Origin: Fibrobacter sp. UWT2
Lineage (GTDB): Bacteria > Fibrobacterota > Fibrobacteria > Fibrobacterales > Fibrobacteraceae
Assembly: GCF_900142545.1 (NCBI RefSeq)
Contig: NZ_FRBF01000024.1
Coordinates: 1 to 36,876 of the forward strand
DNA: 36,876 bases
Direction of reading: 5' to 3'
Part shown: positions 14,580 through 22,407 of the stretch, one piece after another
Position numbering within the stretch: position 1 is the stretch's first letter
How the letters are laid out: each line of letters starts with the position of its first letter
Made by a program: the position numbers and the translations under genes
Notes under the pieces: generated by a model
Databases searched by the model: none
The model's input: the letters and a program-made list of their open reading frames with translations, nothing else
Told to the model about the DNA's origin: nothing

Positions 14580-15713
14580 TTGAAAGATTCCATTGCAGAT
14601 AGTATTCGACGTCATGGGTTCAAGCGCCTGTTGCTTGCGGTTTCGGGCGGTCTAGATTCTATTTGTCTGGCGCATTATTTCATCAAGAATCGCGAAGCGC
14701 TCGGGATTGAATGGCTGGGAATTGCGCATGTACATCATGGACTGCGGGTCGGAACAGCCGACCGCGATGCCGCATTTGTTGAAGCTTTCGCGAAAAAACA
14801 TAACATTCCATTTTTCTTGAAAAAGCTAGATGGCGAAGCGCTAAAAAATGCCGAAGGGTCACTCGAAGAAAACGCGAGAGAAGCCAGGTACAAAGCATTA
14901 GCAGAAATCACTCAGGATGACTCATTTCTCCCGCATAAAACCTCATACCTCAAAGGGAGCGTAGCGACCGACCTCATTCCTCATACCTCATTAGTCATTG
15001 TAACGGCGCATCATGCGGGCGACCAAGCGGAAACCATGTACATGCGACTCCGCCGAGGAACAACGCTAGCAGGCCTCAAGGGAATTCAAGAAGTACGAGG
15101 CAACATTTACCGTCCTTTTCTGAATGTGACTCGAGCGGAACTTCTTGCGTATGCTCGTGAAAATAATCTTGAGTGGTGCGAAGACGAAAGCAATTCCGAT
15201 GTAAAATTCGCACGAAACAAGGTGCGGCACGAATTTCTCCCGCAGCTGGAAAAAGAATGCCCAGGCGCTGCGACGCAATTGTGCAGAATTGCCCAGTTGG
15301 CAGACAAGGCGTATGCGAAAGTAATTGAAGAATGCGACGCGATGTTTCAAGAGACCCTTCCCCTGAAACAAGTTCAGGGTCAGGGTGACACGGCTCCATT
15401 CTCACACCTCAAAGGGAGCGAAGCGACCGACCTCACACCTCATACCATCATCGCTTTGAACAAGAAGGCTCTCCGCAAAATTCTGCGGGAGCATGCCTGT
15501 ACGGACTTATCGGAAATGTTCCGTTTGTGGCTTTCGGAGCAGGGTTTCCGCTTCCCGATTGGGTTCTTCTACGACCAAAAAGAGCCCGCACATCTTAAAA
15601 TTCCCGTACGCGCCGCTTACCGCAAGCGTTCTATCGTCAAAAACGGCTCAACCGTCTTCATTTGCGAATTTGAAAGCGTCGAGGCAGCCCTAAAATTTGT
15701 ATCTTGCAAGTGA
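14580..15713 (+). CDS. tilS: tRNA(Ile)-lysidine synthase carrying two in-frame repeat insertions
   Basis: A 377-residue TilS, which converts C34 of the AUA-reading tRNA-Ile to lysidine using ATP. The PP-loop motif SGGLDS is at 22-27. TAHHAGDQAETMYMRLRRG (142-160) and EDESNSDVKFARNKVRHEFLP (201-221) are classic TilS blocks. The start is a TTG at 14580. Residues about 112-137 and 259-289 are not TilS-like. Each contains a copy of the same 10-residue unit (YLKGSVATDL and HLKGSEATDL), encoded by a near-identical 30-base DNA repeat kept in frame. The second is preceded by a long hairpin. Core motifs lie outside the inserts, so the enzyme is probably active. First gene of the tilS-ftsH-folP-cdaA run. 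Confidence 0.92.
   Translation: MKDSIADSIRRHGFKRLLLAVSGGLDSICLAHYFIKNREALGIEWLGIAHVHHGLRVGTADRDAAFVEAFAKKHNIPFFLKKLDGEALKNAEGSLEENAREARYKALAEITQDDSFLPHKTSYLKGSVATDLIPHTSLVIVTAHHAGDQAETMYMRLRRGTTLAGLKGIQEVRGNIYRPFLNVTRAELLAYARENNLEWCEDESNSDVKFARNKVRHEFLPQLEKECPGAATQLCRIAQLADKAYAKVIEECDAMFQETLPLKQVQGQGDTAPFSHLKGSEATDLTPHTIIALNKKALRKILREHACTDLSEMFRLWLSEQGFRFPIGFFYDQKEPAHLKIPVRAAYRKRSIVKNGSTVFICEFESVEAALKFVSCK
14941..14990 (+). repeat. Repeat copy 1 inside tilS
   Basis: The 30 bases at 14947-14976 (ACCTCAAAGGGAGCG then TAGCGACCGACCTCA) match the copy at 15406-15435 at 29 of 30 positions. The flanks contain further CCTCATACCTCA units. Located between the conserved ARYKALAEI and TAHHA parts of TilS. 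Confidence 0.8.
15351..15446 (+). repeat. Repeat copy 2 inside tilS with an adjoining REP-like hairpin
   Basis: The hairpin at 15354-15386 pairs ACCCT-tc-CCCTGAA with TTCAGGG-tc-AGGGT around ACAAG. This resembles the CCTGAA-ACAAG-TTCAGG palindromes dispersed in many bacterial genomes. The 30-base unit shared with copy 1 follows at 15406-15435. All of it is translated. Confidence 0.8.
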
Positions 15714-21826: not shown

Positions 21827-21857
21827 GTGTACAATATAATTTTTACGATTCACTCAA

Positions 21858-21892
21858 TAAAAACAAGAGGACCGCTTTAGCGGTCCTCTTGT
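21858..21892 (-). terminator. Terminator after the V-ATPase genes
   Basis: A perfect 14-bp inverted repeat, ACAAGAGGACCGCT with AGCGGTCCTCTTGT (21863-21876 / 21879-21892), has a 2-base loop. It is followed on the minus strand by TTTTTATTG. Confidence 0.85.
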
Positions 21893-21900
21893 GTAAAGGA

Positions 21901-21940
21901 GATCCTTCGACTCCACGCCTCACGGCGTTTCGCTCAGGAT
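21901..21940. repeat. REP-like palindromic element
   Basis: ATCCT (21902-21906) and AGGAT (21936-21940) bracket ACGCC-TCAC-GGCGT (21915-21928). The outer sequence ATCCTTCGACTC...CGCTCAGGAT is a type of dispersed repeat common in bacterial intergenic regions. It lies directly behind the V-ATPase K gene. Confidence 0.6.
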
Positions 21941-21951
21941 AACACCTTATT

Positions 21952-22407
21952 TTACGACACGAGCATCATCGAGAACACCATGACGAACAGCGCGACGGTT
22001 TCGCCGACGCCAAGCACCATCAGGTAGTTCACCAGGCCCTTGCCGGTTTCGCCGAGGGCGTTGCAGGCGTCCGCAGCGGACTTGCCCACGTACCAGGCAG
22101 AAGCCATCATGCCGATGCCACCGAAGATGCCCACACCCAGGTATGCAGCCCAGTTGGCCGGAGCCGTCTGGGACTTGTTCAGGATGTACATCATCAGCAA
22201 CATGCCGTAGATTGTCTGCGCAATCGGCGCGCCCACGAAGATGAGCAGCGTAAACAGCGCGTTCTTACCCTTGAGATACGCCTTCTTCCAGGCCCCGATG
22301 GCCGCCATGCCGGCAGTCCCGCAGCCCAGCGCAGAACCCACCGCGGCAAGGCCCAGGGCCGCCACCGCGCCGAGTTTCGCGAGCGTTAAAAGTTGAGCTT
22401 GATCCAT
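21952..22407 (-). CDS. atpK: V-type ATPase proteolipid subunit K (intact copy)
   Basis: A 151-residue proteolipid with four membrane helices in two hairpins, as in bacterial V/A-type rotary ATPases. The rotor ring carries H+ or Na+ past subunit I. The ion-binding glutamate lies in LGVGETVALFVMVF (about residue 136). The first hairpin has Q in the matching place (APIAQTIYG), as in 16-kDa K subunits with one carboxylate. A GAGGTAA site precedes the ATG. It lies 18 bp after a near-duplicate K gene. With I truncated and A, B and D absent here, this copy may have no partners unless they are encoded elsewhere. Confidence 0.92.
   Translation of the reverse strand: MDQAQLLTLAKLGAVAALGLAAVGSALGCGTAGMAAIGAWKKAYLKGKNALFTLLIFVGAPIAQTIYGMLLMMYILNKSQTAPANWAAYLGVGIFGGIGMMASAWYVGKSAADACNALGETGKGLVNYLMVLGVGETVALFVMVFSMMLVS

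Follow-up and report, generated by a model that had tools for sequence, protein, structure and literature searches.

In-frame structured repeats in three loops of the tRNA(Ile)-lysidine synthetase of Fibrobacter

Three surface loops of TilS, the tRNA(Ile)-lysidine synthetase of Fibrobacter, appear to act as landing sites for structured repeats that are usually found between genes, including REP-type palindromes ending in ATGACA, a unit encoding KGSEATD, heptamer tracts, and a covarying hairpin of about 51 bp. Our data are very probably explained by recurrent insertion of such repeats, resembling the RPEs of Rickettsia and probably directed into replicating single-stranded DNA, followed by a filter for open frames and tolerated loops and by reshuffling through recombination. 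Selection would retain the events that keep the frame open in loops tolerating extra disordered residues, and homologous recombination between strains would carry ready-made loops around. For TilS itself, the resulting linkers would probably be of no consequence or slightly deleterious.

The tilS gene of the window and its three loops

The window, a 36,876-nucleotide stretch of Fibrobacter sp. UWT2 DNA from contig C24 of its genome, carries tilS at 14580..15713 on the forward strand, encoding a protein of 377 aa with two repeat-filled loops. Its identity was established through relatives, the Pfam family ATP_bind_3 (PP-loop ATPase domain; E 3.7e-51), and Foldseek, in which the best solved matches were the TilS structures 2e21 (E 1.8e-19), 1wy5, 1ni5, and 3a2k. 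The gene is present in a single copy in this genome (G000), and ftsH starts 17 bp downstream. Core dN/dS ranged from 0.06 to 0.25 in 13 pairs that included the most decorated proteins, and from 0.09 to 0.15 in six pairs involving G000; judged by these ratios, the TilS core is under purifying selection, the inserts notwithstanding. With regard to the C-terminal part (window 15500-15713), most Fibrobacter TilS proteins end in ...FVSC and lack the C-terminal domain kept in L105, L109, L111, L113, and others. One genome bin (G001) holds two differing tilS alleles of 428 and 551 aa (contigs C76 and C17; loci L069 and L114), reflecting either a duplicate or a mixed bin.

As the original prediction had stated, a 30-bp unit, ACCTCAAAGGGAGCG[T/A]AGCGACCGACCTCA, occurs twice in this gene in the same direction, at 14947..14976 in the first loop and at 15406..15435 in the third (both forward strand), with 29 of 30 bases identical. 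The copies lie 459 nt, or 153 codons, apart and are therefore read in one frame, and the predicted translations were confirmed as YLKGSVATDL (codons 14946-14975) and HLKGSEATDL (15405-15434), which differ by two bases. A longer direct repeat of 46 nt surrounds the unit (14942-14987 versus 15401-15446, 91% identical), and the core pattern of the unit, allowing up to two mismatches, was found twice in the window against 0.01 occurrences expected by chance. The second copy begins 15 nt downstream of a nested 35-bp REP, CCTTCCCCTGAAACAAGTTCAGGGTCAGGGTGACA (15356..15390, forward strand), within which the predicted CCCTGAA-N5-TTCAGGG hairpin was read at 15361..15379 of the forward strand, a second determination placing it at 15362-15378; this REP recurs at two places between genes of the same genome (C5:146622 and C9:39971). 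The first loop also contains a remnant of a REP tail, CTCAGGATGAC (14911..14921, forward strand), recognized by its sequence and tail family. The two unit copies of the window stem either from two insertions or from a single one that was copied from one loop to the other. Elsewhere in the window, positions 21840-22015 gave a sub-threshold Rfam match to the Yersinia sRNA Ysr251 (26 bits, cut-off 100) that is probably due to chance.

Searching relatives with TilS by tblastn produced alignments that broke at the same three points, in open frames of 346 to 604 aa. Among 71 distinct Fibrobacter TilS proteins, many of which derive from metagenome assemblies, site 1 (between ARYKAL and TAHH) spans 11-96 aa, site 2 (flanked by GIQ and an RP(F/L)L motif) 8-113 aa, and site 3 (between a YxKV helix and FRLW) 37-106 aa. 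On the forward strand of the window, the alignment places a site 1 loop of 34 aa at 14901..15002, compared with 11 aa in insert-free relatives; a site 2 loop of 8 aa at 15087..15110, insert-free here and up to 113 aa in relatives; and a site 3 region of 65 aa, from the YAKV helix to FRLW, at 15324..15518. AlphaFold2, which also informed the delineation of sites 1 and 3, modeled a confident core for the window protein with pLDDT below 50 in the first insert (residues 120-134), and long insert stretches of the 604-aa protein likewise fell below 50, so that the insert segments are predicted to be disordered. In the nearest relatives (G003, G005, and L070) the loops are short, QEAAENCDAIV being an example, with TilS wholly insert-free in the complete genomes G003 and G005, and site 1 is also short (11-17 aa) in other divergent Fibrobacter TilS proteins. 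The unit copies thus lie in non-conserved loops, as had been proposed, and the same segments were not seen as ordinary conserved sequence in distant TilS proteins.

Repeat families and their distribution

The long loops are mosaics of DPSTSLRSAQDD, DPRLRGDDN, EIPASAGMT, KGSEATD, the heptamer tracts SSLVSRLSS and SSIINHQSS, and LASEAPLEG, the last of which is restricted to site 2 and always read in one frame. The heptamer tracts (CTTTCGT/CTCTCGT, AATCATC, ACCTCAT, AGCAGTG) flank palindromes in the tilS loops, and each unit shifts the frame. A total of 247 12-mers are each shared by three or more inserts and found in at least two frames or strands, 12-mers also recur at different sites, and REP tails within tilS are read as GAT GAC 60 times, as ATG ACA 24 times, and as TGA never. 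That identical letters are read in different frames shows that the repeats entered as DNA and not as peptide.

The description of the 30-bp unit as an intergenic-type repeat held for the genus but less well for the genome of the window. An exact 21-mer search of that genome returned the two tilS copies only, and the resulting reading that the unit is not of intergenic type was overturned by a shorter pattern and a genus-wide search: the 20-mer AAAGGGAGCGNAGCGACCGA is found at three places in the genome of the window, two in tilS and one intergenic (C15:24471-24490), and a set of 61 Fibrobacter genomes yielded 34 copies distributed over 17 of them. Where the surroundings of copies outside tilS were read, nearly all proved intergenic, with a few in marginal or edge-of-locus ORF calls, which justifies the label at genus scale; an intergenic copy at L148, in a different genome, matches the site 3 sequence of the window without a difference over 44 bp. 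The unit is thus rare within G000 and becomes a repeat when the whole genus is considered.

A census of REP tails in one relative, G004, yielded 263 places against 5 with a reversed control. Of 81 tails examined, 30 fell within ORFs, a share of them being chance or gene-edge matches, and the other 51 did not. In the tilS loci, tilS itself (67.9 kb) held 72 tails, the intergenic DNA flanking it (74.8 kb) 22, and the flanking genes (755 kb, longest-ORF calls) 5, a density in tilS about 160-fold above that of flanking genes and also above that of flanking intergenic DNA. Matches to tilS inserts covered 2.37% of flanking intergenic bases versus 0.071% of gene bases, with equal-length pieces of the TilS core as a control covering 0.18% and 0.024%, respectively. 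The original prediction had regarded in-frame inserts of this kind as rare; instead they occur throughout the genus, draw on numerous repeat families across the three sites, and extend to other genes. Pfam-supported genes of G004 with in-frame inserts encode TruB, an FAD-dependent protein, LysE, a HAD hydrolase, and CobA-HemD, as well as a CbiX/NAD-binding protein and a deaminase, and the CobA-HemD fusion constitutes a second in-frame hotspot (L257-L286; G004 C1:861689-863434).

The elevated density in tilS and the proximity of ftsH could suggest that selection favours the inserts because of their peptides or mRNA hairpins, for instance by tuning the level or activity of TilS or of the downstream ftsH. 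The site 3 patch of the window points in the same direction, being 100% identical to that of G029 and of L069 over about 120 bp despite more divergent flanks (upstream core mostly 72-90%). However, peptide, frame, repeat family, and length are all unconserved, and the complete genomes G003 and G005 do without any insert, which makes selection of this kind unlikely. The patch itself suggests that the site 3 loop of the window was probably acquired by recent exchange through recombination.

Repeat orientation and replication strand

The REP tails in tilS lie almost exclusively in one orientation, 84 being sense and 1 antisense; copies sharing descent inflate such counts and also the P values, in which related copies are treated as independent. 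Among distinct 27-mers the ratio is 51:1, against the 38% sense expected from open frames alone. The opposite bias was observed in CobA-HemD, with 37 antisense tails and 1 sense, the antisense peptides including VIPAKAGIS and CHPERSE. Genome-wide, the tail lay on the C-rich strand at 79 of the 100 places listed in G013 and 69 of the 92 listed in G004, and repeat orientation flipped with GC skew along the chromosome (contigs C1 and C2 of G013 and C1 of G004; hand-picked G004 stretches were used for GC skew only and not for repeat density). The tilS gene is on the C-rich strand, with negative skew on the tilS strand, in 39 of 39 long loci, and CobA-HemD is on the opposite strand in the two genomes checked; the third-position skew of the two genes themselves was uninformative. 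Because the opposite biases of the two genes coincide with the genome-wide match to GC skew, replication direction fits both genes and protein does not, and it seems to be replication direction that sets repeat orientation. Intergenic repeats near tilS showed a weak strand bias (13:9), below that inside the gene, and repeats between co-directional genes of G004 leaned antisense to those genes (13:5), implying that transcription may also matter.

An alternative source of the orientation bias, in place of the replication strand, might be selection at the protein level that favours hydrophilic peptides, given that sense translations have a GRAVY of -1.0 and antisense ones are neutral and richer in cysteine. 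This is improbable, since CobA-HemD carries almost only antisense peptides and orientation tracks GC skew across the genome.

The dependence of orientation on GC skew, and not on the coding strand, leads us to infer that insertion would take place at the replication fork into single-stranded DNA, for which IS200/IS605 elements offer a precedent (PMC6006769). As with REP/RAYT and IS200/IS605 elements, the Fibrobacter repeats are hairpin elements with a strand bias relative to replication; unlike the GTAG REP/RAYT and IS200/IS605 systems, Y1_Tnp is missing from the genome of the window and from most of the genus. A search for Y1_Tnp (the RAYT family) found none in G000 and recovered it in 12 of 41 Fibrobacter genomes; its carriers include G005, whose tilS is free of inserts, but not G006, whose TilS is the longest. 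A bolder reading, which we offer tentatively and consider possible rather than likely, is that single strands exposed during replication actively and strand-specifically receive hairpin DNA although no dedicated RAYT takes part, with tilS and CobA-HemD as standing safe harbours. If this were true, the two genes would record insertion events together with replication direction.

Insertion history and relation to known systems

Comparison among relatives shows repeats of many families that are nested, are gained and lost between close relatives, and were inserted as DNA. On the TilS core tree, a quick tree with many weak forks, changes between insert and no insert number at least 10 at site 1 and at least 12 at site 2, and for KGSEATD at site 1, which 9 rows carry, 9 changes are required. 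Clean events separate close pairs: two are tandem duplications, one of 15 nt and one of 24 nt, and in another the arm of a palindrome has received a 51-bp element that a sister sequence lacks. The element of about 51 bp, CCACCTTGGTGGCCATGCGCACTAA-hairpin-TAAGTGCTGTCCGCC, occurs in 29 of 41 Fibrobacter genomes and is often nested in the arms of other palindromes (examples are L036, which is site 1 of G029; L110 at site 3; L114 and L078 at site 2; and L307-L336). Its arms vary yet stay complementary, with stems of at least 4 bp in 25 of 29 distinct copies versus 9.1 expected when arms were re-dealt, and no matching Rfam family was found for it.

Rickettsiales provide the best-known translated palindromic repeats, for which the choice between a hotspot and one old, diverged insertion, where different repeats share a site, was left open (PMC3767692). 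A single ancient insertion per site with later divergence, as proposed for Rickettsia eRPE-4, would account for the constancy of the three sites through the genus and for the confinement of LASEAPLEG to site 2 in one frame. Nevertheless, it is very improbable in Fibrobacter, where insert-free alleles occur among the closest relatives, unrelated families share one site, one repeat is found in different frames and sites, and clean nested insertions exist alongside near-identical intergenic copies. An assembly or gene-calling artefact is scarcely credible: most named loci are from MAGs and repeats provoke misassembly, but reading frames are open in almost all 71 proteins, the cores align over their full length, and the same alleles recur in independent assemblies.

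Recurrent insertion resembles what is described for RPE-4/6/7, eRPE-4, and WPE in Rickettsia and Wolbachia, in which palindromes lie in frame within protein genes, at solvent-exposed sites, with different families at one site and tRNA-processing genes among the targets (PMC3767692). The ATGAC motif is shared with the Fibrobacter REPs, the comparison being one of motif and features (PMC3767692), and in both cases insertion is in frame into ORFs that apparently remain functional, to judge in Fibrobacter from open frames and core dN/dS of 0.06-0.25. In contrast to the RPEs, the Fibrobacter repeats belong to a distant phylum with much larger genomes, stack many unrelated families in three loops of one enzyme, reveal recurrent insertion directly through insert-free sisters and nested insertions, and follow the replication strand in their orientation.

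CGTC-REPs, which have an 8-bp stem, a 5-nt loop, and a CGTC or TGTC tag, are mostly intergenic with some intragenic cases such as truB, and have no dedicated or consistent transposase (PMC3733652). The Fibrobacter repeats are similarly multicopy, mainly intergenic, and without a dedicated transposase; truB is also a target in Fibrobacter, a likeness to the intragenic CGTC/GTAG REPs (PMC3733652); and the intergenic G000 copies of ATCCTGAA-CTTGT-TTCAGGAT fit a stem of 8-9 bp with a loop of 4-5 nt. Among 15 REP copies listed in G000 and read by eye, about 7 have CGTCA and 2-3 TGTCA, whereas TGTC is found in the copy within tilS. Their stem and loop place the palindromes in the CGTC-REP class, the tag being a mixture of CGTC and TGTC. 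Points of difference are that repeat density in tilS exceeds that of intergenic DNA and that neither the heptamer tracts nor the KGSEATD unit belong to the REPs; neither Fibrobacter nor TilS appears in the main text of the CGTC-REP report (PMC3733652).

Searches of the open-access literature turned up no earlier description of such repeats for either Fibrobacter or TilS, although absence there is not proof; what is new is the phylum, the target enzyme, the three loops of many families, the insert-free sisters with nested events, and the strand rule. Repeated insertion is favoured by the dozens of natural alleles that Fibrobacter TilS provides, insert-free sisters and nested insertions among them. 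A replication-linked insertion mechanism becomes testable through the opposite orientation in tilS and CobA-HemD together with the match to GC skew. In rumen metagenomes, TilS length and loop content should not be taken as phylogenetic signal.
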